Positions 3,763 to 50,192 of a stretch of 54,500 bases of DNA are shown piece by piece (the first letter of the stretch is position 1; every line of letters begins with the position of its first letter). The stretch is taken from assembly GCA_013375495.1 (NCBI GenBank), contig JABXKC010000028.1:1-54500 (forward strand), in the 5' to 3' direction. Made by a program: the position numbers and the translations under genes. The stretch is from Promethearchaeota archaeon. GTDB taxonomy: Archaea > Asgardarchaeota > Lokiarchaeia > Sigynarchaeales > SOKP01. The notes under the pieces are model-generated. The model was given only the letters and a program-made list of their open reading frames with translations. It was not told the DNA's origin and made no database searches.

Positions 3763-3777
3763 AAAGACTAAGTCTTT
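3763..3777. promoter_or_regulatory. 15-bp palindrome 5' of hdrC (possible operator)
   Basis: AAAGACT and AGTCTTT form perfect 7-bp inverted arms around one central base, about 50-65 bases upstream of the hdrC start. This is a reasonable position for a regulator near an archaeal promoter. It could be chance in AT-rich DNA. The remainder of 3713-4001 shows only AT-rich sequence. Confidence 0.25.
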
Positions 3778-4001
3778 ACTTAAATAAGTTTGATCAAACA
3801 ACTCAATTGATAATCTTAAGTTTGAAAAAGTAATTTTCTTAAAAAAATTTATTATGAATAAATAATAAACAAATTCCTAACATTTGCTATTTGATATATC
3901 GAATGTTTTTATAAGGAATTTAGATGGTGATCTCAAACTCTAAAGTGATTATTTTTTTTTGAAAATACAAAAATTCCGGTAATTGACATTATTACTAAGT
4001 T

Positions 4002-4187: not shown

Positions 4188-4324
4188 TTCGAATCCCCCA
4201 TCGTTTTCGTCGTTATTAATGAACAACACCATTAAAATATATTTTTTCTTTTAGCTTTATTTATTCTCATCTTGCTTAATAAAGAAATAAATTGGTGGTT
4301 ATTAAAAAAAGTGGAGTCCATCAT

Positions 4325-7189
4325 TTAATTTTCGATTATTGGCAAAGAAAAGAAAAAAGTGCTCCCTTTGTTTCGACCTTCTGACTCCACCCATATTTTT
4401 CCTTCGTGAAGAGTCATTAATTCTTTTGAAATGTACAATCCTAGTCCAGTTCCTTCAGTGCCAACGTCCCAACCTTGGCCGTATCGTTCAATTTTTCCAA
4501 ACTGCGTAAAGAGTTGTTCAATTTCTTTCTGAGTTAATCCGATACCAGTATCTTTTATTGATATGATATAATGTCCGTCTTCCTGTTTAGAATCAATTGT
4601 GATTTCTCCTCCTGCGGGAGTATATTTTATAGCGTTGATTAATAAATTTTCGATAACTTCGGAAATTTTCTCTTTGTCAAATACTGTAATGATTTTATTT
4701 TTTATATTTACCTTAATCTTCTGCTCTCTCAAAATAGTTTTTCCTTGTAATGTTTTTACGCAGTCGTTTATTAGGATCGTAAGGTCCTCTTTTTCCTTTC
4801 TTAATTTTAGCTGTCCTTGTTCTAATTGCGAACTTTGTAAAAGCGATTTGATATATTTCTCGAGACGATTGCTCCCGTTTTTAATTTCCTCCAAAATTGA
4901 GATTACTTCATCGTCTAACTTACTAGAATGCAGTTTTAATAATAAATCAGTGAATCCCTTGATAGATATTAGAGGGGTTTTTAATTCGTGAGATGTTCGG
5001 GAAAAAAGATCGCTCTTTAATTTGTTGATTTCGCTGAGCATTTTATTTTGTTCTTCTAAATGTTGTTGAGATTTCCATCTTCTTTGTTCAATTTCGAGGG
5101 CATCGCATATCAAGAACAGAACTAACTTATTTTGGTTTGAAATAGTAGGATTTTCAGTAAACAAAACGCATAATAAATCGTTTAAATCGTTTCCTGATAA
5201 AATTAATTTTCCGTAGCAAGCTTTAATTTTTTGGTCTCTAATGAACTTATCTGTTTTAGCATATTCCGATTTATCGATATCATAAAATTCTTGAGTAAAA
5301 TCGTGGTTTTCGTGAAATATTTGACTTACAAATAGTTCTCGTTTAAATTGTTCAGCATTGTAAATTTTTACATCTCCTTTATTCGACATGACTCTATATT
5401 GTTCTTCCTCATCGATAAAATTTTTATTGATATAGAGAACAACTTCACCATTAAGTAGTTTTAAGCATGTCTTTAGGAGTAGTTCAATATTTTGTTGAGT
5501 ATCCGTGGTATAGTTGAGGAAGTTAATATTGAGCTCGTAAATTAATTCTTCGTACATTTTTTTTTCAGTAACATCTTCCAACCATAATCTAAAACTTATT
5601 AATTTACCTTTTTCGTCGTATTGGTTCAATCGCTTCCCTTGGAGCCACTTTATTTTACCCTGTTTGGTAACAATTCTGAATTCTATTTCCTTCCCTTCTT
5701 CGGAGTTCAATAATTTCTGTAAATCATCTGGATGGATTATTTCATTTAATAATTTTTTATTAACTATGCTATCATCTTGATATCCAATAAATTCTAATAA
5801 CTTAGGATTGAGATAGGAGATACTATTTTTTTCTAATTCAATTTCTAAAACTCCAATTGTTGAGGTCTCTAACAAATCTCTCAATTTTTCTTCAGAATTC
5901 TTAATTTTTTGTTCTGTTAAGACTTTTTCCGTTATATCTTCTACAGTAAAAATTATATTCTCTATGTTCCCATTGCTTCCAATAAGAGGAGTACCATTTA
6001 TAGAAAGGAGGATATGCGCATCTTTAGTTAAGTTAAAGGATGCGTGATAATCAAATAACGGTTTTTTCGTTTGCATAATAATCTGAAATGGAAGCTCGTC
6101 TTTTGGTATGAGGTTGCCTTCTGAGTTATAAAGTTTAAATTTTGAAGCGATAAAAGATCTTTTTAATAGTTCTTCTTTTGGAAAATGTAAAACTTTCTCA
6201 GCTTGAGAATTTAGGTAAATAATTCGACCATTTGTATCTATAGATAAAATTCCCGCGGGATTTGTTTCCATGATCCGTTCAAGCCTTTCATGTTGCATTC
6301 GTAAATTTTCTTCAGCTTTCTTCCTTTCGGTGATATCTTCAAATGTTATTAGAAGTCCCGCGACTTTACCGTCAGAATTTAACAAGGGAATCCTATTTAC
6401 ATCTGTCCAAATAATTTCTCCATTTCTAAGAGTCCACGTCTCAACACTATGAAAAACAGCTTCATTTGATTCAATAACTCTGATTTCTTGTTTCCGATTA
6501 TAATCTATTTGATTTTTATCCCAAAACAATTCTTCATCCGTTTTATCAATTATGTTCTCAGGATGTTCAATTTCAATTAAATCTGCATAGTTATCATTAC
6601 ACCCTAAGTAACTTAAATCAGTATCTTTCCAAATTATGTATTGAGGTATATTTTCCATTACCATTTGAAGCATTTCGTAGGAGCTCTGTAAAGCTTCTTC
6701 ATATTTTTTTGGATTGAACAGCTTCCAAAATCGAATTTCGGGGATCGTTTCGGTTATTTTTTTAAATCGATCGTCAGCATCTTTTAGGTTTACTTCAATT
6801 TTTTTTTGTTTTGAGATATCCTTTAGAATAAGCAAGATTTTTCTATTATTCTTTTCGTCAACAAATTTCTTAGCTTTAATTTCCGCCCAGATACTTTCAT
6901 TTATCATTGAAGAAAGCTTTAATTCTAGGGAGTTCCCAAATGCTTCTACTCCTTTTTTTAGAAATTTTGTTACTCTTTTGACATCATCTGAAAAGATTAT
7001 ATCCAGGAATGGTTTTCCGGTTAATTTACTATCAGAATAACCCAATTTTTCTAATAAAGGACATTTATTTATTAGGTCAATGCGGAAGTCTTCATTCTGA
7101 TCGATTACAACTACCAGATCGTTGACAATCTCCATAAATATTTGAAATTGAGTCTTGATACTTTCTTGCCCGTGATCGTCAGAAATCAT
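4325..7189 (-). CDS. Soluble multi-PAS sensor histidine kinase
   Basis: A cytoplasmic sensor kinase of 954 residues without membrane segments. Four PAS modules can be followed by their ends (KDISKQKK, FEDITERKKAEE, VEDITEKVL, LEDVTEKK) at roughly residues 10-130, 170-295, 300-425 and 430-555. A GAF-like or otherwise divergent region spans about 560-700. The kinase core has the H-box (SRTSHELKTPL), the N-box (NLLINAIKYTPAGG), and the G boxes DTGIGL and GTGLGLYISKEL. It should autophosphorylate on the H-box histidine and pass phosphate to an unlinked regulator; none is adjacent. The signal is unknown. Stand-alone multi-PAS kinases are common in archaea such as methanogens. Confidence 0.92.
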   Translation of the reverse strand: MISDDHGQESIKTQFQIFMEIVNDLVVVIDQNEDFRIDLINKCPLLEKLGYSDSKLTGKPFLDIIFSDDVKRVTKFLKKGVEAFGNSLELKLSSMINESIWAEIKAKKFVDEKNNRKILLILKDISKQKKIEVNLKDADDRFKKITETIPEIRFWKLFNPKKYEEALQSSYEMLQMVMENIPQYIIWKDTDLSYLGCNDNYADLIEIEHPENIIDKTDEELFWDKNQIDYNRKQEIRVIESNEAVFHSVETWTLRNGEIIWTDVNRIPLLNSDGKVAGLLITFEDITERKKAEENLRMQHERLERIMETNPAGILSIDTNGRIIYLNSQAEKVLHFPKEELLKRSFIASKFKLYNSEGNLIPKDELPFQIIMQTKKPLFDYHASFNLTKDAHILLSINGTPLIGSNGNIENIIFTVEDITEKVLTEQKIKNSEEKLRDLLETSTIGVLEIELEKNSISYLNPKLLEFIGYQDDSIVNKKLLNEIIHPDDLQKLLNSEEGKEIEFRIVTKQGKIKWLQGKRLNQYDEKGKLISFRLWLEDVTEKKMYEELIYELNINFLNYTTDTQQNIELLLKTCLKLLNGEVVLYINKNFIDEEEQYRVMSNKGDVKIYNAEQFKRELFVSQIFHENHDFTQEFYDIDKSEYAKTDKFIRDQKIKACYGKLILSGNDLNDLLCVLFTENPTISNQNKLVLFLICDALEIEQRRWKSQQHLEEQNKMLSEINKLKSDLFSRTSHELKTPLISIKGFTDLLLKLHSSKLDDEVISILEEIKNGSNRLEKYIKSLLQSSQLEQGQLKLRKEKEDLTILINDCVKTLQGKTILREQKIKVNIKNKIITVFDKEKISEVIENLLINAIKYTPAGGEITIDSKQEDGHYIISIKDTGIGLTQKEIEQLFTQFGKIERYGQGWDVGTEGTGLGLYISKELMTLHEGKIWVESEGRNKGSTFFFSLPIIEN

Positions 7190-10230: not shown

Positions 10231-12771
10231 TTATTTAGTATTTATTTTTTTTTCAATTTTCGGAAGAAAAATATAAAATGTTGTTCCCTTACCTTGTTCG
10301 CTTTCAACATACACTTCTCCTGAATGAAGTTCAATTAATTCTTTCGCAATCGATAATCCTAAACCAGTTCCGGGGATATCAGTAACTTGTTCCGATCTAA
10401 AAAATCTTTGAAAAATGGAGGTTAATTCGTCTTCTGAAATTCCTATACCGTTATCTTTCACGTAGAATAAAACTCCGTCCCGATCATTGTCATTGTATTT
10501 GCCCTTGTAATGATCAATAGCTTTTATCTCGACTGTGTTGCTATTCCGTGAATATTTTATAGCATTATCAATAAAAATTCGAAAAATTTGGAAAATTTTT
10601 TTGCTTTCTCCTAATAATGTTATTTCTTCACTTACATTTATATTAAAAGTTATATTTTTTTCATTCCCAACTGGTTCCATTAAAGTTAAAATATCCTTAA
10701 AAACTAAGAGTGGTTTGTACTCTTTCCATTCCATTTTATATTTTCCTTCATCTATTCTGGAAAGCGTTAAAATATCTTCAATTAAGTCTTTTAGTAAGTA
10801 AATATTTCTTGAAATCCCTTCTTTTAATTTTTTATTTACTTCTGGAGTAATCTTCTTCTTATAATTATCTAAGAATTCAATTGACATTGTTAAAATGCTC
10901 ACGGGCGTTCTAAGTTCGTGAGAGACTGTAGAAACAAATCGCTTTAATCTATCTTTTGCTTCTTTTCTAGCTGTTATATCCATACCGTAAATATTCATAT
11001 AACTTTTTCCCTTAATCAGCACTAAAAATAGACTGTAAATTCGTTCTTTTATCTTTAATTCTATTTCTGAATTCTTATCCTTAGAAAATGATTCTTTAAC
11101 AGGTTTTATAAGGATTTCTGGTATTTTACTACCTTCACCTATCCCAAATAAGGTTTGACTAGCTTTGTTTGCTAAAAGAACATATTTCTTACTTAATCGT
11201 AAGACAGGACTAGGATTCTCAGTGTAAAACCTTGCCATATCAGCAATTTTTTCTCGTGCAATTTTCTGTTCGGTATCATCAGTCACAAAAGCCATAGCTC
11301 CCGTAAACTTTCCAGTTTCATCGAATATTGGAGAAGTTCTTATTTTCGTAAATATTTTTCTTCCAGATTTGTGAATAAATTCAAACTCGTGGTCTTCCTT
11401 TATTCCCTGCCTACGCCTTTCAAAATTAATTTCAGCTAATTTTTTTCCATCTTCATCCATAAATTTATACAGCTTTTTTCCTATCATTTCGTCGATCTTG
11501 TAACCAAACATACCTGCCATGCTTTGGTTAACAAAAGTAGTGTTAGTATTATCGTCAATTACCCAGATTCCCTCCAAGGATTCCTCAACTAGATTACGAT
11601 ATTTCTCCTCCGATTTTTTCATTGCTAATTCTAATATACTACGTTCAGTAATGTTTGTGAAGTTTTGAATTATCCCTACGAATTCTCCGTTAATATTTCT
11701 ATAAGGAACAGATCGCACAAGGGTTACGATATTAGTATTATCATTTACTTTCGTTATCAACTCATATTCAAAATGTTCTTTACCCTGTTCGATTTGTTTC
11801 ATTGAACACAAATCAGTATTACACTGGTGCCCAAGACGTTTTAAATCAGGATCGTAGCATTTTTTGCTTATTATTTCCTCCTTCGTTAAGCTAAAAAGAT
11901 TTAAATATGTCTCGTTTATGCGTATAATCTCGTAATCTTTATTAATTACTCTCAGTGGTGCAGAAGCGTTAAACATTTGGTTAAATTCGGAGTAGGCTTC
12001 TTCTAAGTCGTCGGCTTTTCGCCTCAACGAAGTATCACTCAACTTCAGTTTCCTAAGTAGTAAGCCAAAGGGATCTTCTAATGCTGTTTCAATTATTGCC
12101 TTATAGATGAAAAAAAATGCAATTATTTTAAAAATATGACCGATAAAATTTGAAAGATCAGATACACTCAAATAGAATGTAAATGCCAGTTCTGAAATGA
12201 TCGTAGCGCTTATGGAAAGCATAATTAAAAGAAATATCTTCCTATTAAATTCGCTTCGAAATTTGTATAATATTATTGCCGAAGTTAAAAATATGAAATT
12301 GATTATATACTCACTTATAATTTTAAAAGGCGTTAGCCCTATACCTACTATATAACTCGTCGGAAATACCCCGTAAAAAATGAGAATAAATAGAACTGAA
12401 ATGACGATTAAACCCCCCAGCATCAAGTAAGTCGCGTTAATCTTCTTTTTTATTGCAAATAAGGCAAAAAGATAAGAAATAGATTGCCAATATCTTGCTG
12501 CAATCCACAATTGGGTAGGAAGATTCGCATTGAATTCAAGTATAATACTCATTCCTGAGTAGGTTAATGTGTGTATTAAATCTATAGCGCTTATGAAAAG
12601 AAAAGAAATTCCAATGATAAGGAAAAAGGAATTATCCATGTACTTTCGAGAGTTCCAACCAATAAAAAAAATCCCTCCGGAAATTACAATGCTAATTACT
12701 TCAGCAATAGAATGAAATAGTAAATAGCTATAGGTACTGAGTAAAGTTATAAGAAACAATCCTGAACCCAA
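10231..12771 (-). CDS. Membrane sensor histidine kinase (MASE3 + PAS)
   Basis: The first about 230 residues contain about eight membrane helices. The segments AIDLIHTLTYSGM and LPTQLWIAARYWQS are typical of the MASE3 sensory membrane domain. About three PAS-like modules follow (roughly 255-375, 380-500 and 510-600). The first contains a Cys-rich motif, CYDPDLKRLGHQCNTDLC, known from many archaeal PAS sensors. The kinase core has the H-box STVSHELRTPV and the ATP-binding motifs DNGIGI and GTGLGLSIAKEL. The adjacent response regulator (9277-10173) is the obvious partner. The ligand is unknown; a membrane-dissolved or redox signal is possible. Confidence 0.92.
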   Translation of the reverse strand: MGSGLFLITLLSTYSYLLFHSIAEVISIVISGGIFFIGWNSRKYMDNSFFLIIGISFLFISAIDLIHTLTYSGMSIILEFNANLPTQLWIAARYWQSISYLFALFAIKKKINATYLMLGGLIVISVLFILIFYGVFPTSYIVGIGLTPFKIISEYIINFIFLTSAIILYKFRSEFNRKIFLLIMLSISATIISELAFTFYLSVSDLSNFIGHIFKIIAFFFIYKAIIETALEDPFGLLLRKLKLSDTSLRRKADDLEEAYSEFNQMFNASAPLRVINKDYEIIRINETYLNLFSLTKEEIISKKCYDPDLKRLGHQCNTDLCSMKQIEQGKEHFEYELITKVNDNTNIVTLVRSVPYRNINGEFVGIIQNFTNITERSILELAMKKSEEKYRNLVEESLEGIWVIDDNTNTTFVNQSMAGMFGYKIDEMIGKKLYKFMDEDGKKLAEINFERRRQGIKEDHEFEFIHKSGRKIFTKIRTSPIFDETGKFTGAMAFVTDDTEQKIAREKIADMARFYTENPSPVLRLSKKYVLLANKASQTLFGIGEGSKIPEILIKPVKESFSKDKNSEIELKIKERIYSLFLVLIKGKSYMNIYGMDITARKEAKDRLKRFVSTVSHELRTPVSILTMSIEFLDNYKKKITPEVNKKLKEGISRNIYLLKDLIEDILTLSRIDEGKYKMEWKEYKPLLVFKDILTLMEPVGNEKNITFNINVSEEITLLGESKKIFQIFRIFIDNAIKYSRNSNTVEIKAIDHYKGKYNDNDRDGVLFYVKDNGIGISEDELTSIFQRFFRSEQVTDIPGTGLGLSIAKELIELHSGEVYVESEQGKGTTFYIFLPKIEKKINTK

Positions 12772-12863: not shown

Positions 12864-13403
12864 TTATAAAACCGATTTTTGAAAAACGGTATATATTGAG
12901 GTTTTAAATATTTGATATGGAAAATCAAGTGGAAATATATCTTTTATCTGTTGTGTTAATGATTGGATTACTTCATCTTTAATATATATATTCATGATTT
13001 CTACATCAAGGTCAAATTTATGCAAGAACAGTGAGAACTCAAGATTAATCGCTGTTTTCTTTAATAACGCAATAATTCTAGCTAGATACTCAAGAGAAAT
13101 ATCATAACGTTCTCTATCTTGAATGTCTATGACATAAATGAGTTTACTCGCTCCTTTAATGTGGTTTTTAAAATTCTTAAAATAATCTTCTCTAAATTGT
13201 GCTTGCCCTCCAAAATCCCATATATTAAATTCTGAACCCAAAGTATGAAATTTATTGATTTCAAATCCTCTTGTTGGATTTATAGCGCTAAATGACGAAA
13301 GATTTTTCACTCCCTTTAGACACATCACAATAGATGTCTTACCACTATTGTCTAAACCCATTATAATTATTTTCTTTGTATTCTTAGAATCTTTTCCTTG
13401 CAT
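12864..13403 (-). CDS. Arf/Rag-like small GTPase
   Basis: A single GTPase domain of 179 residues. The P-loop is GLDNSGKT (17-24, after G16 region), switch I includes NPTRGF (T44), the DxxG region is WDFGGQ (62-67), the base-recognition motif is HKFD (128-131) and the G5-like motif is TSIY (168-171). HKxD in place of NKxD, together with WDxGGQ, is a Rag/Gtr1 trait, whereas the length is Arf-like. No lipidation site or C-terminal roadblock domain is present. Such GTPases are an Asgard hallmark. The gene is 31 bases downstream of an arsR-type regulator and is transcribed with it. A roadblock protein, a typical partner of Rag GTPases, is encoded about 3 kb away. Confidence 0.9.
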   Translation of the reverse strand: MQGKDSKNTKKIIIMGLDNSGKTSIVMCLKGVKNLSSFSAINPTRGFEINKFHTLGSEFNIWDFGGQAQFREDYFKNFKNHIKGASKLIYVIDIQDRERYDISLEYLARIIALLKKTAINLEFSLFLHKFDLDVEIMNIYIKDEVIQSLTQQIKDIFPLDFPYQIFKTSIYTVFQKSVL

Positions 13404-16197: not shown

Positions 16198-16602
16198 TCA
16201 AATATGGGCAGAACTACTTACAATCTCGTCGCCATCCTCGAGATGTTTATAATGTTTGTATAAAATTGGTGCGAGTTTAACTTCTTTAGTTGTTGACACA
16301 GTTAAGACCTGATCTTCACCCGCATGTAAAATTAATACATACCCCTTTTTAGCTTGAATATAGGACTGTTCAAACTCGCCTAAACCCATTTCTGCAATTG
16401 CGCGCTCGCTTAACGAGCAGAGGGCTGCCGTCATAGCAGCTAGTCGCATATCATCCGTATTAGATGGTAGAACTGAAGCAAGAGGTTGACCAGTATCCGC
16501 CGTGAGTTGCGCAGCTTTTACTCCGTCAACATTATCCATAATATCCTTTAGCAAATCTTCAAGGGAACTCTTGAAATCCCTTCTCTTCTTTAACCCTTTC
16601 AT
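16198..16602 (-). CDS. Roadblock/LC7 domain protein
   Basis: A single roadblock domain of about 100 residues after a basic N-terminus. The pattern MDNVDGVKAAQLTADTGQPLASVLP, followed by LAAMTAALCSLSERAIAEMG, a central beta strand (YVLILHAGEDQVLTVST) and a final helix, is typical of roadblock/MglB/Rag-associated proteins. These are GTPase scaffolds or regulators and are numerous in Asgard archaea. Convergent with cysS (13-base gap). A Rag-like GTPase is encoded about 3 kb away, but no direct operon links them. Confidence 0.88.
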   Translation of the reverse strand: MKGLKKRRDFKSSLEDLLKDIMDNVDGVKAAQLTADTGQPLASVLPSNTDDMRLAAMTAALCSLSERAIAEMGLGEFEQSYIQAKKGYVLILHAGEDQVLTVSTTKEVKLAPILYKHYKHLEDGDEIVSSSAHI

Positions 16603-38985: not shown

Positions 38986-40347
38986 TTATTTATAAAATTC
39001 GCAATCCTCAAGAATTTGGGACAAATCAATAACAGGTAGGCTTGAATTCGTGTCTTCAGCTGCTAAAGCGAGGTTGTTTTTACAAAAAACGCAAGCGCTT
39101 ACAAGAGCTTCTGCATTTGTTTCTAAAGCTTCTTTTAACCTATCCTCATTAATATCTTCCCAACATGCAGTAGTTTCATCTAACCGATTACTTGCGATAT
39201 CAGTAGAAATATTCCCATAAAGAGCGCGGACACCACCACCAGCTCCACAGCACCACGACATTTCTCTGTTGTGTTTCATTTCGACTAACTTAACGCCTTC
39301 AATCATGTCGATAAGTTCTCTTGGTTCGTCGTAGATGTCAGAATATCTTCCTAAATGGCAAGGATCGTGATACGTAACAATTAATGGATTTTCTTTTGTT
39401 CGTTTCGTGTATCTTATTTTAATACCATTTTCTTTAGCATACTTAGGTACAAATTGAACCATGTGAGAAAGTTCAAAACCGAGATCACCTTTTATAAATT
39501 TTGGATATTCCGTTGTAAATGTAGAAAAACAACCAGCACAAGAAAAGACGATTTCATTCACCCCAAGTTTACGAATCATGTCAGTGTTATACTTAACTAA
39601 TTCAACAGCTTCATCTTCTAATCCTGTTCTGAATAATACTGATCCACAACAATATTCATCGGGAAAAACAATGAATGGCACTCCCATTTTGTCTAATATT
39701 CTACTTGTTGCTGTACTTAGTTCATTATTCCTATAAGCAGAGGTGCATCCAACAAAGTAACCAATTAAATGTTCTTCAATATCACTTGCTTTTAATTCTC
39801 CTGACGCTATTTTTCTAGCATGTTCAGCTCCACGTTCATATGCCATATGACCTTCATCACATGATTGAGAATTACACCAATTAAATCGATCAGTTCCACT
39901 TTCAAGAAATGGATTTTTGTTCGTTAATATTGAATTCTTAAGGATTTGTAATTTCTCTGGCATTACACCTTTCCTAACGGCAGTTCTTCTATAATTTTGA
40001 AAGACTTCTAAAGTATCGATTCCTGAAGGACACACAGTTCTACAATTACCGCATAGCATACACTGGTAAATTGCATCGATTATTTGCTCTTTGTCAAAAT
40101 CTATTTCCCTTTTCTTTAAAGATTTAAGAATTCTGTTTCGACCACCAGCATAATCTCTCTCAGCGTAAGTCGTATTATAAACCCTACAAACAAGACGACA
40201 ATAACCACATTGAGTGCAACGTTCGTAATCTTCATCAGCTTTAGAATCGGGATCAACTAGATTATCTTGATCAGGAGCAAATATGCCTGATACAGGAGGA
40301 CCAGTAGTTACTACTTTTTTTACATCGTCTCTTATTTTTTCATTCAT
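38986..40347 (-). CDS. HdrD/GlcF-like Fe-S oxidoreductase
   Basis: Fe-S protein of 453 residues. The N-terminal ferredoxin pair (CTQCGYCRLVC; CMLCGNCRTVC, where the usual fourth Cys is in a CPSG context) is followed by two CCG domains (CCGSVLF with CAGCFSTF; CCGAGGGVRALYG with CVFCKNN). This is the layout of GlcF/LldE/HdrD subunits that take electrons from an FAD dehydrogenase. It lies 33 bases after the FAD-oxidase gene, and its ATG follows a GAGGT ribosome site. Last gene of the membrane redox operon. Likely role: pass electrons from a 2-hydroxyacid to a membrane carrier or to a thiol. Confidence 0.88.
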   Translation of the reverse strand: MNEKIRDDVKKVVTTGPPVSGIFAPDQDNLVDPDSKADEDYERCTQCGYCRLVCRVYNTTYAERDYAGGRNRILKSLKKREIDFDKEQIIDAIYQCMLCGNCRTVCPSGIDTLEVFQNYRRTAVRKGVMPEKLQILKNSILTNKNPFLESGTDRFNWCNSQSCDEGHMAYERGAEHARKIASGELKASDIEEHLIGYFVGCTSAYRNNELSTATSRILDKMGVPFIVFPDEYCCGSVLFRTGLEDEAVELVKYNTDMIRKLGVNEIVFSCAGCFSTFTTEYPKFIKGDLGFELSHMVQFVPKYAKENGIKIRYTKRTKENPLIVTYHDPCHLGRYSDIYDEPRELIDMIEGVKLVEMKHNREMSWCCGAGGGVRALYGNISTDIASNRLDETTACWEDINEDRLKEALETNAEALVSACVFCKNNLALAAEDTNSSLPVIDLSQILEDCEFYK

Positions 40348-40380
40348 TTTTATTTTTACCTCACTTCATTATTTAAAATT

Positions 40381-41832
40381 TTAGGCTGTTTTATAAAGAA
40401 GTTTAGCTATCCAAAAGAGTAATCCAAGTCGCCAAGGTCTCATTTTTGCTTTTACTAATCTATAAGAATTTACAAGATCTTCAGGATCAAGTTTATTCTT
40501 CAATTTTCGCAAGTAGTCTGCTCTTTCCGGATTATATTTCAGAAAATATTGCGTATTTACAACACCTAAGGTATATAAACTGTCTTTATTTTTGTAATTG
40601 TAATTTGTAATGTCATTAAATACCGCCTTAATCCCAAAAAATTCTCGCGAGTTAGCGATATCTGAGAGCCCAAAAAGTTTAATTCTATTTTCTCCTTTGG
40701 CTCCAGACATAACATACATCGCATTTCGATATCTTTGCTTAGAAGTCTTTTCCAAATAGAAGTTGTAAAAATCTTCCACTCTATTATCAGAAACAAGATA
40801 CTCTTGAAAAACTAAGTTTTGACACCATCGACTGACATTTACTTCAGTATCAGCTATGTCCCGCCATTTTTCTTTTAAGTACCATTCTTCTACAGCAAGT
40901 CCATCTAGTTTCGACGCAGTATCTTTAGCAAAAGAGACACTTTGAGAAGTTACGCTAGGTGTATCAGAATATACCGCAAAGACGAAATAAGCTCGAGCTG
41001 GATATGTCCAATGGGCATATTTCTCAAAACTCTTATCTGATAGTGAAAGGAAAAACGGTTTGCTTGTATCATTATTTTTCAAAATTCGAAAAAATTCGAT
41101 CGCAGTTTTAAAGGTATTAAACCCATAACCACCATATGCCATTGATTCATTAAGCGAGGTTACCTCCATTTCTACTTCTGCTACAGCGCCAAATATGCCA
41201 AAAGAGCCTATTATATCATCAAACGATAAGTCTCCTTGTGAATCTTTAGTGATTGTTTCGACAGTACCGTCAGGTTTTACAAAAACTACGGAACGTATTA
41301 CATCCTTCATTATTCCATTTCTTAAAACACCAACTCCTGCTTTACCAGAAGTAACGACAAATCCACCAACACAGCTAGATTTATAACTGGTAGGGTAAGA
41401 TTTTGGACCTAATCCATACTCAAGAAGAGCTTCTATAAGTCTTAGCCAAGAAATCCCAGCATCGCATTTGATTGTCATATTTGCAGGATCAATGTTATGA
41501 ATTTTATCCATTCTTCGCATGTCAATTACTACACCGCCTTTAGTAGGTGTTGATGCGGAATAACAGGAACTTCCTGCTGCCCGTATAGTAACTGGAATCG
41601 AATGTTCTCTGCATTTCTTCATCAATTTTGAGAGTTCTTCTGTATTACCTGGACGGATTACATGAGTTGCTTTGAACTCTTCTTTGAATTTATAATGATA
41701 CTTTGGGAGTAACGAGAGATCTCCTGTGGTCGCTTCAATATCGTAAGGATCCGTGCTAACATGAGAAGGAGGAATAAATTCTTTAACTTCTTCAGTAAAA
41801 TTCCCTTTTTCTATATTTTTAGTTTCACTCAT
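40381..41832 (-). CDS. FAD-linked dehydrogenase (GlcD/D-lactate dehydrogenase-like)
   Basis: A 483-residue FAD-binding-4 (VAO/PCMH) oxidoreductase. The FAD site is seen in PVTIRAAGSSCYSASTP with VVIDMRRMDKI, and later GGFVVTSGKAGVGVLRNG. The C-terminal half is the substrate/cap region. Typical partners use D-lactate, glycolate or alkyl-glycerol compounds. Here it precedes the HdrD/GlcF-like gene by 33 bases, as glcD precedes glcF. A GAGGTG ribosome site is present. The substrate cannot be read from the sequence. The gene follows a membrane protein gene at 18 bases, tying the dehydrogenase to the membrane genes. Confidence 0.86.
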   Translation of the reverse strand: MSETKNIEKGNFTEEVKEFIPPSHVSTDPYDIEATTGDLSLLPKYHYKFKEEFKATHVIRPGNTEELSKLMKKCREHSIPVTIRAAGSSCYSASTPTKGGVVIDMRRMDKIHNIDPANMTIKCDAGISWLRLIEALLEYGLGPKSYPTSYKSSCVGGFVVTSGKAGVGVLRNGIMKDVIRSVVFVKPDGTVETITKDSQGDLSFDDIIGSFGIFGAVAEVEMEVTSLNESMAYGGYGFNTFKTAIEFFRILKNNDTSKPFFLSLSDKSFEKYAHWTYPARAYFVFAVYSDTPSVTSQSVSFAKDTASKLDGLAVEEWYLKEKWRDIADTEVNVSRWCQNLVFQEYLVSDNRVEDFYNFYLEKTSKQRYRNAMYVMSGAKGENRIKLFGLSDIANSREFFGIKAVFNDITNYNYKNKDSLYTLGVVNTQYFLKYNPERADYLRKLKNKLDPEDLVNSYRLVKAKMRPWRLGLLFWIAKLLYKTA

Positions 41833-41850
41833 TTTCTTTTACACCTCGTA

Positions 41851-42414
41851 TTATAAAAAGAGCCCTAATAAAAAGGCACCCCACCAACCAGATAATGTAA
41901 AATATCCAGTTAATCTTGCCAGATTTCGTTGTCCCGCAGCTCCAAACAAAAAGCTTGCGGAACCGGTCATCAAGCCAGTAGCTCCAAGCATAATATGTAG
42001 GGTGTGGACCATTCCAGAATAATTCAGTATTTCTGTTGGAGTCAAAAATACTAATAGAATAACGTTGATAATTGTAACAATTAAAGATCCTCCTGCGAAA
42101 TAACCATGCCACACAACATATTTATGCTCGTCATATAACACAAGAATCGTTCCTATAGACAACGAAATTAAAGCTGGCAACCCTAATATCAGTCCTACAT
42201 GCCAACTATCGCTAGTACTGTCAATGATTTCAATACCATTTGATATCATATCAAAGACTACTATTACCGTCATCAAAACTCCAAAAATAATTATCAAAAT
42301 CCAAATTAAAGCTTTCGATTGATCTTGTTTTCTAAAGTTCAATGTTAATATTAGTGCTATAAATATCGCAACAGCTACAAATGAAAGAATTATTTGTATT
42401 TCATATGATACCAT
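41851..42414 (-). CDS. Six-helix membrane protein with several histidines
   Basis: A 187-residue integral membrane protein with about six spans. Histidines lie at or within the membrane ends: SWHVGLIL, DEHKYVVWHGYF and MVHTLHIMLG. They could bind heme or support quinone chemistry, and the general form recalls DUF420/CtaM-type helpers of heme-copper oxidases, though I cannot claim homology. Its position between the UbiA-type heme O synthase and the FAD dehydrogenase argues that it belongs to the same electron-transfer unit. An AAGGT ribosome site precedes the ATG. Confidence 0.7.
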   Translation of the reverse strand: MVSYEIQIILSFVAVAIFIALILTLNFRKQDQSKALIWILIIIFGVLMTVIVVFDMISNGIEIIDSTSDSWHVGLILGLPALISLSIGTILVLYDEHKYVVWHGYFAGGSLIVTIINVILLVFLTPTEILNYSGMVHTLHIMLGATGLMTGSASFLFGAAGQRNLARLTGYFTLSGWWGAFLLGLFL

Positions 42415-42536
42415 ACATTTGACCTTTTCTTATTTTTTTAATTCAAATCTATTTTTAATTAAATTGTAATATTCTGTATATTCATTCAAAATGTTAATTA
42501 AACATTTTATTGTAATTTGTAAATTTAGAACGATCA

Positions 42537-43418
42537 TTAGAAAAGAACCCCCAAAAAGACGATTAAAAACCCGAGAAGCATGTAGAGAGACGCAATTTTA
42601 AAAATTAGGAAAGTAAGTTTATTTAAAGGTTTTAGTAAATTCTTTATTACCATAACTATCATTACCGCACAACAAATTCCCCATATAATCCTTATAAAAG
42701 CGTTCGCTCCTAACAGTCTAATTGCCTCGTAAAGCGCTAGACTACTAATAAATGCTCCAATAGCGATAACTCGCATGGTTTCGGTTTCTGAACTCACTAT
42801 TGGCCACATAGGTACTCCCGCATCTTTATATCCTTTAAAATTTTTAGGGATCAAAGCTATTGTAAGTATGTGAACGGGAATCCAAGCTAGAATGAAAATG
42901 AGAAATAGAAATCCAATCCAATCTAAACTTCCCAATATTGCTGTCCTACCCGCCCAAGCCGGAAGACCACCTGCTATTCCTCCAAAAATAATGCTAAATT
43001 TAGTTCTTCTTTTCAAAAGAATGCTATAAACTACAACATCAAAAAAGAATCCGAAAAATATTATTATTGCTGTTAACCAGTTTAGAGTAAAAACCGCAAG
43101 AAGTATTCCCGCTACTGTTAAAATGATACCGATTGTAAGAACTGTAGATGCTGTAACTTTACCGCTTGGCAAGGGTCGATCCTTCGTCCGTTCCATTATT
43201 GCGTCAATATCTTTATCTATATACATATTTAGTACGGTAGAACCTGACACTGCAAGATATATTGCTATAGCCAAATGAATTAAATTGAACCAGTTAATCT
43301 CGATTAGTAAACTGAAAGCAGTAATTAAATAGCATAATATTCCAGTATAAAGGAGAAGTATGGTTTGTCTAGCTTTTATTAGTTCCCCAAACAGAGAAAA
43401 AACATTTTTCAAGTTCAA
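42537..43418 (-). CDS. ctaB: UbiA prenyltransferase, protoheme IX farnesyltransferase-like (heme O synthase)
   Basis: A polytopic UbiA-family enzyme of 293 residues. The Asp-rich motif reads NMYIDKDIDAIMERTKDRPLPSG and a second loop gives YKDAGVPMWP, the two signatures of CtaB/CyoE, which adds a farnesyl group to heme b to make heme O. The GGIAGGLPAWAG segment also fits. Start TTG at 43418 with an upstream CAGGA. It lies between two polytopic proteins with membrane histidines, which supports a heme-dependent membrane enzyme. A menaquinone- or lipid-type prenyltransferase cannot be excluded. Confidence 0.8.
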   Translation of the reverse strand: MNLKNVFSLFGELIKARQTILLLYTGILCYLITAFSLLIEINWFNLIHLAIAIYLAVSGSTVLNMYIDKDIDAIMERTKDRPLPSGKVTASTVLTIGIILTVAGILLAVFTLNWLTAIIIFFGFFFDVVVYSILLKRRTKFSIIFGGIAGGLPAWAGRTAILGSLDWIGFLFLIFILAWIPVHILTIALIPKNFKGYKDAGVPMWPIVSSETETMRVIAIGAFISSLALYEAIRLLGANAFIRIIWGICCAVMIVMVIKNLLKPLNKLTFLIFKIASLYMLLGFLIVFLGVLF

Positions 43419-43500
43419 GAGTAATCCTGCTTTTTAACGAATTATTTTAAATTTATATCTTCAATTTATCCAATACAACAGTTTAATATTAATTTTTTTT

Positions 43501-45018
43501 TCAGTTCTTCTCAGTTAAAGGCAAATGTACAGAGTGTGTTGGAGCTATTTTAACATTTTTACCAAGTGCATATAATCCAATGACAAAACCAGCTAAGAGA
43601 AACCAAATTCCTAGAAATGTAATATCTCTAAAAATTGTAATTGGTTCCCAAGCTACAGGACGTAACATGTGTAACATAGCAAAAGGAAATGTTAAATTAA
43701 AACCGATAAAAAAGGTCCAACCCAGAATTTTTTTCAAATTACCTTCAACCTTGAAATGATCGATAGCATGTACCATTAGAGCTACTGCAATCATTACAGC
43801 AAGCTGATGCCAGTGCCCAACATTAAAATTATACTCCAGTTGTACGTATGAATGTAATCTATAAATGCTATCCGTTGTTAGACCAACATAAATTTGAGGA
43901 AAAACTAAAAGTTGGGCAATAGCGAGGAGATAATAATAAGATAATTTTACCGGCTCCCTAAATAACGCTTTAAGTTTCTTTGAACGTTTTGCATCTCGGT
44001 AATCGTCTCCTAAATGGTTTTTTATAGTTGTTTTGAGACCAACTACTGACATTGTCAATGTTCCAATAATCAAAATACCTGCACCTACCCATATTACATA
44101 ATGGTTTAGAACCCAAGCGCCATAAGATAATGTAATTATACCAATCGGAGTAAGTAATAAAACATATCTATATAGATTACCTGACATTTTACTCGTACGA
44201 AAGGCTACTAACATAACCATTGCTGCTGATTGAGCAAGCTGTATGTGAAGGTGACCGACTATCATATCTTGGACGATATCGTGTTCATGTCCGAATGTGA
44301 TCCCATGTCTAATGATCGCTTCTGCCAAGAAGGCAATAGGTTCGCGGTTCAATCCCCAAATAGAATTAGTAAAATTTTCTATAGCAGCGAGAGCACCATA
44401 TATTGTCGAAACAAGAATGCATATCGCTAATACTACGAGATTAAAATATTCTAAATTTAGTCCTCGGAATGTACTACCACTGGGATTAATTTTTGGGAAT
44501 CTACCCTTTACTGGCCAGGCTGCCATTATGAATACAATTCCACCAATGAAACAAAGCAACATACCAAATGTGAAAAGTTCGTGGAAAAGACGAATACGAG
44601 TATATGCAAAAATCATTCCGTTTATCCCTACAAGAAATGCACTAGGCACTAAAAGAACTTTTAGAGTTGGTAACCACTTATTGCGTATAGGGTAGTGTTC
44701 AAGTATCCAGAATGTGTTCGCTACTAAAAATGGTACAGCTAACGAGTGATATATCATAACGAGTCGAGCTGTCCTTGAGATAACATCGTCACTAAGGAAG
44801 AAAGGAAAGATAGGTTCTCCCCCAATTAACACTGTTAACGGTTCTGAAAAAGTTAGGTACCAGAGAACTTGAAGAAAAACGAATATAAACATAGCGTAAT
44901 GTATCTTCTTAAAACTTGGTTTTGGTTCAATTCTCATTTTTTGAGTTTCCATCGGGGTTTCTACACTACTTTGCATTGGAATTGTTTCTGTTTTTATTTT
45001 TATCACCTTTATTTGCAA
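43501..45018 (-). CDS. His-rich polytopic membrane protein, possible heme/heme-copper-type subunit
   Basis: About twelve membrane helices in 505 residues. Many histidines sit in or at helices: H91 (ARLVMIYHSLAVPF), H146, H244/H246 (GHEHD), H256/H258 (VGHLHIQL), H306, H402/H404 (NVGHWHQLA) and H417/H421. The H in the second helix plus a late HxH resemble the low-spin and binuclear heme ligands of heme-copper oxidases and NO reductases, but I cannot align it convincingly. The start is uncertain: a TTG at 45018, with ATG 44976 as an alternative. It lies 20 bases after the SORL-like gene and 5' of the heme O synthase gene, so a heme enzyme is likely (inference). Confidence 0.7.
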   Translation of the reverse strand: MQIKVIKIKTETIPMQSSVETPMETQKMRIEPKPSFKKIHYAMFIFVFLQVLWYLTFSEPLTVLIGGEPIFPFFLSDDVISRTARLVMIYHSLAVPFLVANTFWILEHYPIRNKWLPTLKVLLVPSAFLVGINGMIFAYTRIRLFHELFTFGMLLCFIGGIVFIMAAWPVKGRFPKINPSGSTFRGLNLEYFNLVVLAICILVSTIYGALAAIENFTNSIWGLNREPIAFLAEAIIRHGITFGHEHDIVQDMIVGHLHIQLAQSAAMVMLVAFRTSKMSGNLYRYVLLLTPIGIITLSYGAWVLNHYVIWVGAGILIIGTLTMSVVGLKTTIKNHLGDDYRDAKRSKKLKALFREPVKLSYYYLLAIAQLLVFPQIYVGLTTDSIYRLHSYVQLEYNFNVGHWHQLAVMIAVALMVHAIDHFKVEGNLKKILGWTFFIGFNLTFPFAMLHMLRPVAWEPITIFRDITFLGIWFLLAGFVIGLYALGKNVKIAPTHSVHLPLTEKN

Positions 45019-45038
45019 TATAGATTAAGAAATATTTT

Positions 45039-45566
45039 TTACCTATTCTTATTTTCTTGTAATTTTAGCGCTTTTTTTTGTCCGAACATTGGTAAAATGA
45101 AAAGCAATCCAAAGACAATTATCGTCGAGACTATGGTCGGAACTACTGCTAAAGAAAAAGTTCCGTGGGGGTTATAATAAGGTTGTCCTACATAAAAATG
45201 CTCTGTTAAACTACCTCCAAGGGAACAATGAGCTGTTACAGTAATATTTGCCCTATCTCCAGCGATAAATGTAAAATTGTAATTATTTATATTATGAGAT
45301 TCTTGTTCAGTGAAGGGGTAAGTATAATCAGGGGCTTCAGGAGGATGATATGGATCACTGCTATTAACCCAGATTTCTATTAAGTATATATAATGATAGG
45401 TAGTATTCGTTATATCGTGAGTTATTTTCACACTAAGATTATGAGTATCAAGGTCATATTCCATATCCATGGTTATAGGGCTGTGCGCTCTCACGTTAAG
45501 AATGTTTAAGGTTAAAATGATTATCATAAAGGTTGACAAAAGGTAAAAAACATTTTTTTTTAACAT
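45039..45566 (-). CDS. Secreted SORL/desulfoferrodoxin-like protein with C-terminal anchor
   Basis: Signal peptide at residues 1-27, giving a mature protein that begins at H28 (AHSPITM), then a beta-sandwich domain and a C-terminal membrane helix (139-160). The pattern KITHDITNTTYHYIYLIEIWVN (H50, H58) followed by VTAHCSLGG (H113, C114) resembles superoxide-reductase-like domains, where His and Cys bind iron. A free N-terminal His could also join a metal site. First gene of the membrane redox operon, 20 bases before the polytopic protein. The Fe(His)4Cys set of true superoxide reductase is not fully matched, so the function may differ. The AHSP-start SORL arrangement is, as far as I recall, widespread in anaerobes. 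Confidence 0.65.
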   Translation of the reverse strand: MLKKNVFYLLSTFMIIILTLNILNVRAHSPITMDMEYDLDTHNLSVKITHDITNTTYHYIYLIEIWVNSSDPYHPPEAPDYTYPFTEQESHNINNYNFTFIAGDRANITVTAHCSLGGSLTEHFYVGQPYYNPHGTFSLAVVPTIVSTIIVFGLLFILPMFGQKKALKLQENKNR

Positions 45567-45825: not shown

Positions 45826-46512
45826 TTATACTTTCTTTTTTAATCCAGGAATCGCAAAACTCCACAAGTCTGGAAGTAGCATTCCAAGTGCAAAAAATAC
45901 CGCTGTAATGAGTAATACAATAGGTAATACAGTTAAAATTAATATCAATAATGGAATGTCAGTAGGATTGATTGTAAACAGCGCAAGGAGCACCCCAGCC
46001 AGACTCACAACTAAACCGCCTATTGACATTAATAACGCTTTCCAATCCGTCTTTTTAGTCTTAAAAGTTGTATATAGTGGAAGTAGTATAATCGATAGAC
46101 TACTTGGAATGTGAGCAACCATAACGGTAGCAGACGCACCAGGGCTTGCAGAAGCTTTAGCAATTCCGACTAGAATTATCATAACTAAGACGAAAATTAA
46201 GAAGATATGACCAACGAGTTTTTTATCCTCAAACACTGCATAATAAAGCCCTGCCGCAATACCCCCAGGTATAAGTACTGCTAATGCTGCTACTAAAGGA
46301 GATAATAATAACGAGTAATCGTTGCTAAATATAAGCACTACTCCTGCTACAAATAGCACTATAAATGCAAGCGCCCAAAGTAAATGATAAATCTTTTTGT
46401 TTTTTAAGAAATCAAGCAACATAAACAGTCCAAATAATATCGCAGCTATTCCTGTTATTAAAAGTAAAATAACTGCCCCTGGATAAGTTGAAACTATGAA
46501 TTGTAACATCAT
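45826..46512 (-). CDS. Seven-helix membrane protein, unknown
   Basis: A 228-residue protein, almost entirely hydrophobic, with about seven spans. It has a conserved-looking SYNDYS/KKTDW pair of cytoplasmic loops but no cysteine or catalytic motif. One histidine (MVAHIPSS) sits in a helix. Upstream of, and in the same direction as, the SORL-led operon, but a strong oligo-T run lies between, so it is probably transcribed separately. I do not recognise a family. Confidence 0.65.
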   Translation of the reverse strand: MMLQFIVSTYPGAVILLLITGIAAILFGLFMLLDFLKNKKIYHLLWALAFIVLFVAGVVLIFSNDYSLLLSPLVAALAVLIPGGIAAGLYYAVFEDKKLVGHIFLIFVLVMIILVGIAKASASPGASATVMVAHIPSSLSIILLPLYTTFKTKKTDWKALLMSIGGLVVSLAGVLLALFTINPTDIPLLILILTVLPIVLLITAVFFALGMLLPDLWSFAIPGLKKKV

Positions 46513-46836: not shown

Positions 46837-48006
46837 TTATTGACCTTTCCGATAAATCCTAAGTATAAATAAAAGAATAGCAACAACTATTAATGGTACT
46901 ATAATACCCACCAGTAAAGTTATTTGTTCTGTATAATATTCGTAAAAATGACCAGAAATCGGTGCTCCAATGGCTACTCCGGCAACAATTAGAGCGTAAA
47001 ATGTTCCTGTTGCAACACCGCTCTCAGAATCTTTGGTTTTCTCTTTAACAGCACCTGCTGAAGATGGAAAAATCAAACCATGCCCAAGGCCCAGGAAGAT
47101 CATTCCAATCATTGGGATTGGAACTTCGAAAGAAATCATGAAAATTCCAAATGCCGATGCTATCAATATTAATCCAATTAGCATTACTTTAATGAAACCT
47201 ATCTTGTCGCTCAATAAACCTGCGGGGTAGTGAATAAGTATTGAGAAGATCACCATTATGCTCAAGATCATGCCAGTTTGTCCAACAGTATATTCCGCGT
47301 GTTCCAACATTAGGGTATATACTGCTGTAACGATTCCCATATTAAACATCATTGCTAATATTGAAAAATAGGGACTTATCATGGATTTACGTAAAACTGC
47401 TCTTCTAAATATTTTGAATTCTTCTCTAAACTTTATCTTCTCTTTAGAAGGTTGATATATCGAAGGGAGAAAGAAAGAAGTGAAAGACATTATAAATAAC
47501 ACAATTGCCATGATGAAAAACAAACTACTCTCACCAATTATTTGAGCAACTAGTCCCCCTAACAAGAAACCTATTAAATTTGAAAATCCAATAGACATGC
47601 CGTATAGTGCCATCCCTCTACCGCTTCTTCTTTGGCTAGTTGCGTCTGAAATATAAGCCATTGTAGCAGGTCCACCAAAACCCCCTCCAATTCCATGAAC
47701 GATTCTACCAAATAATAGGAATAATGGATCTCGAGCGACAGCATATAAGAGCATCGAAACTCCGTCTAAAAACACTCCAATGGATATTAATTTGTTTCTC
47801 CCTAACTTATCAACTAATCTACCAAATATTATATTTGAAGGGATGTGCACCATGGAATAGACTCCTACAATAAAGCCGGTCATTATAATTGACGCCCCTA
47901 ATTTTCCCGCATAGGTCGCAATAATAGGGATTGCTGCGTTACTATCAAAATTGACCATAAAAGATAAGGTAAGTATTAGAAAAAGATGTTTTCTCTTTAT
48001 TATCAA
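46837..48006 (-). CDS. Major facilitator superfamily transporter
   Basis: 389 residues with twelve membrane spans. The MFS loop 2-3 motif is seen (GRLVDKLGRNKL) and its duplicate in the second half (GLLSDKIGFIKV), along with a Gly-rich helix (GRIVHGIGGGFGG) of the drug-efflux type. The substrate is unknown; drug or small-metabolite efflux is typical. The start is a TTG at 48006. No regulator adjoins it. Confidence 0.9.
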   Translation of the reverse strand: MIIKRKHLFLILTLSFMVNFDSNAAIPIIATYAGKLGASIIMTGFIVGVYSMVHIPSNIIFGRLVDKLGRNKLISIGVFLDGVSMLLYAVARDPLFLLFGRIVHGIGGGFGGPATMAYISDATSQRRSGRGMALYGMSIGFSNLIGFLLGGLVAQIIGESSLFFIMAIVLFIMSFTSFFLPSIYQPSKEKIKFREEFKIFRRAVLRKSMISPYFSILAMMFNMGIVTAVYTLMLEHAEYTVGQTGMILSIMVIFSILIHYPAGLLSDKIGFIKVMLIGLILIASAFGIFMISFEVPIPMIGMIFLGLGHGLIFPSSAGAVKEKTKDSESGVATGTFYALIVAGVAIGAPISGHFYEYYTEQITLLVGIIVPLIVVAILLFILRIYRKGQ

Positions 48007-48546: not shown

Positions 48547-49368
48547 TTAATTATATATTATTTTAGTCAGTTCATTTTCTTCTCCTCTAAGATAATTCTT
48601 GAGAACATTCATCTTACTCATTGAGAGAATAGCTACGTCAAGACATTCTTGGATTAAATCCTTAATTGAAGCTAGTGAAAGCAATTTACCACGCATCTTA
48701 CCCGTCGCATCAGTTTTAGTTGACTGATTCGATTTGCTTATTATTTTCTCTATCTCATTGATATTTATCTCTCTTAATAACTGTGCATTTTCTCGCGATT
48801 TTGGATCTTTGTCAAATACTCCAAGCACATCTGTTGCAAATATTAGGTGTTTAGCGTCTAATGCCCGCGAAAGTACTACTGCGATTTGATCTCCGCCGCA
48901 AACGCTAAATCCCATACTATTGTCGTACATCATATCGCCTCCTATCAACGGCACCATCCCTAAAGATAAAAAGCCCTTTAAAGATTCAAATGCGTGATCA
49001 ATTATCGCCATCTTATTGCCCACGACCATCGAAGAAGCGTGCATTAAGTTTATAGGAATTCCTTTATCTAAAAATTTAGAAGCAATCGTTTTTCGAAATC
49101 CGTTAACGATTTGCTGCGTTTTTGACATAGAAATTAGTTGATCTTTTTCTTTAAACCCCTTATGAAGGTTATATTGCAACACAGGAGGATGACCGAAAGA
49201 GCCTACTCCGTGGACTATAACTAAACTTTTGATTAGTCCTAAATCAATGCACTCTTTTATTTCGGTGACAACTGCTTCTAGAACTTTCTCTTTTAATTTG
49301 TATGGCGTAGATTTATCTGTAAGTAAAGAACCACCGAGTTTTAATACTAGTATGTCTTCTAATGTCAT
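48547..49368 (-). CDS. Isopentenyl phosphate kinase
   Basis: An amino-acid-kinase-fold protein of 273 residues. LVLKLGGSLLTDK and IVHGVGSFGHPP are the IPK signatures; the catalytic-type His in GSFGH and the later ATDVLGVFDKDP fit the archaeal enzyme that makes isopentenyl diphosphate from isopentenyl phosphate in the alternative mevalonate pathway of ether-lipid synthesis. 20 bases after the polyprenol-kinase-like gene, so probably one operon for isoprenoid phosphate handling. Confidence 0.9.
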   Translation of the reverse strand: MTLEDILVLKLGGSLLTDKSTPYKLKEKVLEAVVTEIKECIDLGLIKSLVIVHGVGSFGHPPVLQYNLHKGFKEKDQLISMSKTQQIVNGFRKTIASKFLDKGIPINLMHASSMVVGNKMAIIDHAFESLKGFLSLGMVPLIGGDMMYDNSMGFSVCGGDQIAVVLSRALDAKHLIFATDVLGVFDKDPKSRENAQLLREININEIEKIISKSNQSTKTDATGKMRGKLLSLASIKDLIQECLDVAILSMSKMNVLKNYLRGEENELTKIIYN

Positions 49369-49388
49369 TTAAATTCGCAGAGATTATG

Positions 49389-50192
49389 TTAGAAATTGTA
49401 AGAAAATGGCCAAAAATCTGGAAAACCAAAATCAAATATCAAAATTACTACTATAACAGCAACAAAGATTGTGAAGTTGTCCCAACCCTTGGGTGATAAC
49501 GCTTCTACCAGAGTGGCAACTATACTAACAACAATAATCGGCAGAATGAGTGTAAGAATATTGAAATTAGGAACTTCCAAAGAAAAGATCAACACGAGAA
49601 TAGAGCTCACTAATATCGATCCAACGAGCATTCCAATACTTCCTATAATGGTTTTTTCGCTTCCTTTAATTCCAAACTTCTTTTCTCCGCCAAATTTACG
49701 CCCAATAATATCCGCTAGCCCATCTCCACCTGAAACGCACCCAATAATAAGCAACGCTGTAGGATTTGCGTTATCAATACCCGTAGAAGGTACGTAGAAC
49801 CAGAAAAAAGTCATTAATAGCATAACAATAGCATAGTAGAGCGTTCCTTCAAGAAGTTCCCGAGGATCGCCCGATCTTGACATCGAATTAACAAAACTCT
49901 CGTTTTTCATCAACCCCGTACCAATAGCTACAAATTGTAAAACGAACAATAAGGGAACTATTGCAGCAATGTAATGACTAATGATTTCGCCTGTAAAAAG
50001 CATCCAGGTAATAACGAATATAGGACCCGCAAAAATATGGACGAATTTCCTCGTAATAATTTGAGATACTTTCCCTTTCTTTTGCATTAGTCCGTTAATC
50101 TGAACTAAAGCTAATAATATTGCAATAGATATAACGGTCGCAATTATATCCCAAACAAACGCCAAGTCACTACCAAAAGGATTAAATACCAT
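49389..50192 (-). CDS. Dolichol/phytol-kinase-like CTP-dependent kinase
   Basis: A polytopic protein of 267 residues with about seven spans. It belongs to the SEC59/DGK1/VTE5 family, seen from ITRKFVHIFAG, the GDGLADIIGRKFG motif, KGSEKTIIGSIGM and the closing EALSPKGWDNFTIF, which is typical of phytol kinases. It would phosphorylate a polyprenol (geranylgeraniol, dolichol) with CTP. The linked isopentenyl phosphate kinase suggests joint recycling of prenols into lipid precursors; this is inference. Confidence 0.82.
   Translation of the reverse strand: MVFNPFGSDLAFVWDIIATVISIAILLALVQINGLMQKKGKVSQIITRKFVHIFAGPIFVITWMLFTGEIISHYIAAIVPLLFVLQFVAIGTGLMKNESFVNSMSRSGDPRELLEGTLYYAIVMLLMTFFWFYVPSTGIDNANPTALLIIGCVSGGDGLADIIGRKFGGEKKFGIKGSEKTIIGSIGMLVGSILVSSILVLIFSLEVPNFNILTLILPIIVVSIVATLVEALSPKGWDNFTIFVAVIVVILIFDFGFPDFWPFSYNF

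Follow-up and report, generated by a model that had tools for sequence, protein, structure and literature searches.

Heme-copper oxidases (HCOs) underlie aerobic respiration and much of the reduction of nitric oxide (NO), and their origin is debated; NnrS, a membrane protein that contains heme and copper, belongs to nitrosative stress. We describe here a membrane redox operon from the Lokiarchaea, members of the group closest to eukaryotes. The window, by which we mean the whole stretch of 54,500 nucleotides analyzed (Promethearchaeota archaeon, GCA_013375495.1, contig JABXKC010000028.1, positions 1 to 54,500), carries six genes, all read in one direction from the minus strand, in the transcription order SORL-M505-UbiA-M187-FAD-HdrD, separated in that order by 20, 82, 122, 18, and 33 bases. 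An earlier note on this DNA had described six same-direction genes with short gaps and a membrane redox module without a name, and both descriptions stand. On balance, and with modest confidence, we favor an explanation in which M505, a 505-residue protein, forms the membrane core of a branch of the HCO superfamily that is very divergent and has not been described. What the analysis itself shows is gene linkage, invariant residues, the predicted fold, profile similarity, and co-occurrence with a heme O synthase-like gene.

Fold and invariant histidines of M505

The predicted structure of M505 and a fold search identified the 12-transmembrane (12-TM) fold of HCO subunit I, and profile-profile comparison with HCOs gave 94% in global and 82% in local mode, against 0.28-0.38% for the reversed null. 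A structural comparison of this protein with heme-copper oxidases and NO reductases (NORs) had been proposed in the earlier note, and fold and profile together favor the heme-copper class. Because the B-metal and Tyr/Glu features of ordinary oxidases and NORs were not found in M505, fold and profile lead us to class it as a probable new divergent branch rather than as either of these enzymes. The closest named relative is a Lokiarchaeota protein at 88% identity. A second family search with A3 returned 19 proteins, the three named ones all archaeal, and the M505-family proteins of P. aerophilum, P. ferrireducens, and Infirmifilum are annotated as hypothetical. No description of the family was found in the literature searched, the coverage of which left out subscription papers and preprints; PMC9258230 refers to a family of halobacteria (fam02696) with a distant relationship to HCO subunit I.

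Conservation was assessed over 146 distinct sequences of at least 440 residues, two degenerate paralogues having been excluded beforehand. His91, His146, His256, His258, His306, His402, and His404 are invariant in all 146, as are Arg85, Tyr90, Arg387, Glu395, and Trp403. When residues were mapped onto bo3 CyoB through 40 random subsets with the window sequence as master, the helix X HxH pair His402/His404 fell on CyoB His419/His421 in 39 subsets, and His256 and His258 fell on His284 and Glu286 in 38. The placement of His91 on CyoB His106 (helix II) was weaker than that of helix X, being obtained in 20 subsets and three residues off in 14, and the same pairing was returned by the full-profile global alignments. 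Whereas the helix VI His is kept in 38 of the 40 subsets, the helix VII His-His pair is absent from M505. The column of the active-site Tyr (bo3 Tyr288) holds Gln or Ala in the M505 alignments, and a Pyrobaculum-led alignment places Ala opposite Tyr288 and Gln opposite His334. All eight sequences taken as NOR, plus three more, have Glu at the bo3 288 column, and this NOR-type helix VI Glu is absent from the corresponding M505 position. It thus seems that M505 retains the positions of the heme ligands and the B-metal His of helix VI; the helix VII His pair and the Tyr are lost.

We infer the hemes, metal, electron path, and substrate of M505 from these correspondences and from its gene neighbors. 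By fold and alignment, His91 and His404 would hold a low-spin heme, and His402 would bind a high-spin heme opposite a second metal. His258 and His306 could complete an altered three-His site, in which Cu or Fe would be held by His256 and His258 on helix VI and by His306 near the helix VII/VIII junction; such a site would replace the usual single helix VI His and helix VII His-His pair. Upstream of the operon, two degenerate paralogues of M505 (L004:5262-6614 and L005:4965-6284) are without His258 and His306 and keep the other five His; because both residues are lost and the other five kept, these Lokiarchaeal paralogues suggest that His258 and His306 act together. His146 has no firm HCO counterpart.

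Gene partners and neighborhood

The UbiA-type protein had been read in the earlier note as heme O synthase-like, and its best family is indeed cyoE_ctaB (TIGR01473, heme o synthase) at 197.7 bits, though under the curated cut-off of 210.3, which six of ten module UbiA relatives exceed. Across 227 Promethearchaeal genomes, a heme O synthase-like gene (E up to 1e-30) was present in 38 of 39 genomes with M505 versus 9 of 188 without it (p 2e-33) and, among the 213 genomes without PF00115 over its cut-off, in 30 of 31 versus 4 of 182 (p 4e-31); these genomes have common ancestry and unstated completeness, so that the p values are not independent and absences may be gaps. In the sole exception (G022), M505 is a fragment of only 95 residues. 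Distances between M505 proteins and between UbiA proteins correlated at 0.91 over 25 loci.

A genome scan with query A1, comprising 42 of 118 M505 homologues, yielded 17 loci. All six genes are present at each of the ten Lokiarchaeal loci (L001-L010) and, for this reason, the cluster is not a chance arrangement. The gene-order search suggested in the earlier note therefore recovered the full set, with the order itself changed at L009 and L010 to SORL-M505-M187-FAD-HdrD-UbiA (UbiA last; M505 identity 46-48%). At L004-L008, 2.5 to 3.2 kb lie between SORL and M505, and a contig end truncates HdrD at L008. At one fragmentary locus (G098), M228 (a membrane protein described below), HdrD, FAD, and M187 occur together, with M505 at the contig edge and UbiA on a separate contig. 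Beyond the Lokiarchaea, UbiA stands immediately downstream of M505 in 15 of 20 further Asgard regions (L053-L072, some shortened by contig ends), in which none of SORL, M187, FAD, and HdrD was seen within six genes of M505. Of 398 Thermoproteota genomes sampled, 15 had a match, and none of these four genes was seen close to M505 in the regions examined (12 were read, L097-L108). The single chain proposed in the earlier note is thus not borne out as one unit: beyond the Lokiarchaea the recurring set is M505 with a heme O synthase-like gene, often joined by M228.

M228, whose gene lies 259 bases upstream of SORL and beyond the range of the earlier note, was modeled with seven helices at a predicted local distance difference test score (pLDDT) of 90.6, and may serve M505 as a partner subunit. 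It occurs near M505 at six of the ten Lokiarchaeal loci (L002, L004-L008) as well as in the window and at G098, within three genes of M505 in 12 of the 20 further Asgard regions, and, as a relative directly before M505, in 9 of the 12 Thermoproteota regions (partial in L102, in two frames in L100). In Pyrobaculum oguniense (L016:9248-9845, plus strand) a relative upstream of M505 is in two reading frames as deposited. A six-frame search of 18 loci added only L016 and L100, with no M228 found at L017, L105, L106, or L108, and the idea of a universal core subunit was dropped: M228 recurs in two phyla yet is not universal. One His, His134, is common to all 27 aligned members. The fold search with M228 returned seven-helix bundles, among them G-protein-coupled receptors (GPCRs) and rhodopsins (Z to 15.6), with no Foldseek match under E 0.001 and no HCO subunits among the fold matches listed; the likeness to GPCRs and rhodopsins, which comes without clear sequence similarity, was put down to a probable common helix arrangement rather than to kinship.

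The remaining Lokiarchaeal components are assigned with differing firmness. In M187, His72, His103, His137, and His140 are invariant in all 12 aligned sequences and, together with the seven of M505, bear out the description of these membrane proteins as His-rich. M187 has no significant Pfam or NCBIfam family; the notion of a half-size heme A synthase was set aside for want of a family match, and by analogy with HdrDE, M187 could be a b-type cytochrome accepting electrons from HdrD. The HdrD-like protein (CCG E 8.6e-35, Fer4_8 1.6e-13, two CX2CX2CX3C motifs) has the 4Fe-4S and CCG features expected, and the FAD dehydrogenase matches FAD_binding_4 (PF01565, E 5.3e-32). The 2-hydroxyacid donor of the earlier note was based solely on GlcD-like similarity: TIGR00387 (glcD) scores 89 bits against a cut-off of 568, and FAD-oxidase_C is not significant (E 0.11). 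For SORL the desulfoferrodoxin label is weak, with PF01880 below cut-off in the window (E 0.067) and matched by 3 of 11 relatives (best E 0.0036). His28, His50, His58, and Cys114 are invariant in 11 of 11 sequences (alignment A5), and were read against the His4Cys iron-site pattern of superoxide reductase; Gly stands in place of the fourth His, which would follow the Cys by three residues, the full site is not present, and the SORL profile found no superoxide reductase among PDB sequences. An extracytoplasmic metal domain, as the earlier note had it, is plausible in SORL, although one of the five expected ligands is replaced.

Features of the operon and its surroundings in the window, with the assignment of each and its basis
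Feature	Position	Strand	Assignment	Basis
M228	45826..46512	-	7-helix membrane protein, possible M505 partner subunit	Model, alignment, neighborhood
SORL	45039..45566	-	Desulfoferrodoxin-like outer domain, signal-like N-terminal helix, C-terminal helix	Helices by reading
M505	43501..45018	-	12-TM protein of predicted heme-copper-oxidase fold; TTG start, exact start uncertain	
UbiA	42537..43418	-	Prenyltransferase, heme O synthase (CtaB/CyoE) type	TIGR01473 score
M187	41851..42414	-	Small membrane protein, four invariant His, putative b-type cytochrome anchor	Alignment
FAD	40381..41832	-	FAD-binding dehydrogenase, FAD_binding_4, GlcD-like	Pfam/NCBIfam
HdrD	38986..40347	-	HdrD-like iron-sulfur protein, two CX2CX2CX3C motifs, CCG domains	Pfam, motif scan
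Kinase pair	48547..50192	-	AA_kinase-family protein and CTP_transf_1-like, polyprenol-kinase-like protein; not counted in the module proper	

The kinase pair lies near the operon at nine of the ten Lokiarchaeal loci and starts less than 1 kb from the UbiA gene in L009, L010, and G098. Pfam identified AA_kinase and, below threshold, CTP_transf_1 (23.3 bits, cut-off 24). The AA_kinase protein is probably isopentenyl phosphate kinase, and the pair may supply prenyl diphosphate for heme O. A major facilitator superfamily (MFS) gene at 46837-48006 was rejected as a heme transporter: it is kept at seven of the ten Lokiarchaeal loci, but the MFS proteins of L065 and L066 are weakly similar (36-50 bits). 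Also recurring beside M505, at 11 Asgard loci, is a membrane family without a name (c3; for example L058:7080-7766), one scanned member of which had no NCBIfam match and which a membrane protein at L004:7858-8628 (minus strand) resembles by look. An HxlR-like regulator (c4) recurs near M505 at 10 Asgard loci, and for one member the score against RrpB, a redox regulator model, was 59 bits (cut-off 175). Elsewhere on the minus strand of the window, HdrA-like flavin/iron-sulfur, CCG (HdrB-like), and HdrC-like proteins are consecutive at its start (119-3712; Hdr names by reading), and eukaryote-like Asgard genes encode a small GTPase (Gtr1_RagA/Arf, 12864-13403) and, by reading, a Roadblock/LC7-like protein (16198-16602). 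Comparison with PHROGs gave no significant match.

Proposed function and competing explanations

In Lokiarchaea, electrons would probably come from an organic donor and reach M505 by way of the FAD protein, then the HdrD-like protein, and then M187 as a cytochrome. Imported heme is probably farnesylated for M505 by the heme O synthase-like enzyme encoded next to it. The likely reaction would be reduction of NO or trace O2, as detoxification or as an electron sink, and SORL, on the outside, would handle related reactive species. Indications of the substrate come from elsewhere. In P. oguniense, M505 has a NOR-type PF00115 protein on one side and a NarG-like gene on the other (NarG and NarH named by reading), and G287 has the same neighbors with M228 in place. 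At L100, the opposite strand carries, upstream of M228-M505, a NOR-type gene together with a UbiA gene that looks like heme O synthase and scores 85 bits against the window UbiA. In Thermoproteota, M505 is near a dimethyl sulfoxide reductase-type gene at L101, and at L106 it is flanked by multiheme cytochromes (2910-5489 and 10304-11977) with weak hydrazine-dehydrogenase similarity. A DUF438/hemerythrin-like gene was read near M505 at L012 and L017, the L017 protein weakly matching FeS_repair_RIC (E 0.0025). These neighbors favor nitrogen oxides or O2.

Several results weigh against the explanation as a whole. PF00115 matched neither the window M505 (E up to 0.5) nor six relatives (E up to 10), so that M505 is not filed as an ordinary member of that family; PDB sequences gave no M505 match, Foldseek with the M505 model gave nothing below E 0.001, hhalign with the eight-NOR template alone, a shallow one (Neff 2.0), gave nothing (Prob <0.2%), and subset profile probabilities dropped to 6.7 and 16.5% at worst. 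Within the putative metal site, His306 mapped to bo3 His333/His334 in only 18 of 40 subsets, and the full A2 profile left His256 unaligned. The six-frame search found no M228 at L001, L003, L009, and L010 or at eight other Asgard loci. A heme held between M505 His146 and M228 His134 is speculation, weakened by P. oguniense, in which the piece of M228 expected to bear His134 is without that His. With respect to heme supply, porphobilinogen deaminase was not found in 32 of 39 M505 genomes (found in 7) versus its presence in 11 of 14 control genomes; it served as the marker of heme synthesis in place of AhbD, whose radical-SAM model was non-discriminating (14 of 14 controls matched, only one over cut-off). 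Ferrochelatase exceeded its cut-off in 3 of 16 genomes, two being weak and only G013 strong, AhbD had no match over cut-off in 16 genomes, and no heme-uptake gene was identified. Because most M505 genomes lack porphobilinogen deaminase, heme would need to be imported. The NO link depends on the Pyrobaculum neighbors, and the substrate is the weakest step, since no NO or nitrate genes were seen beside the Lokiarchaeal operon.

A bolder reading, which we hold to be somewhat unlikely, is that M505, joined by M228 at the loci that have it, represents a third kind of heme-copper-type reductase next to those for O2 and NO, its B-metal being held by the HxH of helix VI and a single helix VII/VIII His, in heme-importing anaerobes. 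Such anaerobic archaea would import heme and convert it to heme O, a flavin/HdrD-like dehydrogenase would feed the enzyme in place of a quinone or cytochrome c chain, and the spare M505 His146 and the single shared His of M228 might hold a further heme at the interface.

M505 might instead have the HCO fold and hold heme without acting as a terminal reductase, binding or buffering NO or merely carrying electrons, in the manner of NnrS. The absence of both the active-site Tyr and the NOR-type Glu would fit such a role, as would Pyrobaculum, where M505 stands beside a NOR-type protein and need not itself be an NO reductase; yet the invariance of His256, His258, and His306 in all 146 sequences goes beyond the needs of a plain cytochrome, and seven M505-family proteins scanned gave no NnrS Pfam match, and we consider this role somewhat unlikely. 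Unlikely too is that FAD, HdrD, and M187 form a separate dehydrogenase merely adjacent to M505 in Lokiarchaea: their absence from the vicinity of M505 in other Asgard and Thermoproteota regions would be expected of such an enzyme, but the three were kept with M505 at all ten Lokiarchaeal loci and the fragmentary G098, through the order change of L009 and L010. That M505 has kept the HCO fold without heme, as a membrane protein for a metal or a metabolite, with UbiA acting on another substrate, would suit the scarcity of porphobilinogen deaminase and the sub-threshold window UbiA, but is very improbable given three invariant heme-ligand positions, the module UbiA proteins that do exceed the heme o synthase cut-off, and a co-occurrence with the heme O synthase-like gene that is hard to explain without heme.

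Comparison with known systems

If the favored explanation of M505 as a divergent HCO core is true, a remote branch of the superfamily in Asgard and Thermoproteota with other predicted ligands would widen the capability of the scaffold and offer an evolutionary outgroup, and there would be a concrete reason for heme O synthase retention in Lokiarchaea apparently unable to make heme. The idea is testable, because the cultured Prometheoarchaeum syntrophicum (P0094) and Pyrobaculum aerophilum (P0123) encode M505 homologues.

M505 shares with HCO subunit I (bo3 CyoB, cbb3 CcoN, aa3) the 12-helix fold, His on helices II, VI, and X (HxH), and a heme O synthase partner gene, and differs from it in being without the helix VII His-His pair, the active-site Tyr, and a PF00115 match, in having an extra His after the helix VI His and the extra His146, and in that no subunit II was recognized adjacent. 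Unlike NorB, qNOR, and archaeal NOR, M505 has no Glu at the Tyr position, where archaeal NOR-type sequences carry one, and it showed no detectable profile similarity to a shallow eight-sequence alignment of NO reductases. NnrS is likewise a 12-helix, His-rich membrane protein tied to denitrification, but M505, compared with it by Pfam only, gave no match. SORL resembles superoxide reductase/desulfoferrodoxin in the order of His28, His50, His58, and Cys114, and differs in having Gly for the His three residues after the Cys, in scoring below the Pfam cut-off, and in being apparently exported and membrane-anchored. The HdrD and FAD proteins of the window score far under the equivalog cut-offs of HdrD, GlcF, LdhH, and GlcD; they resemble HdrD, GlcF, LdhH, and GlcD-type proteins in their cluster motifs, CCG domains, and FAD_binding_4, with M187 standing where HdrE would be.

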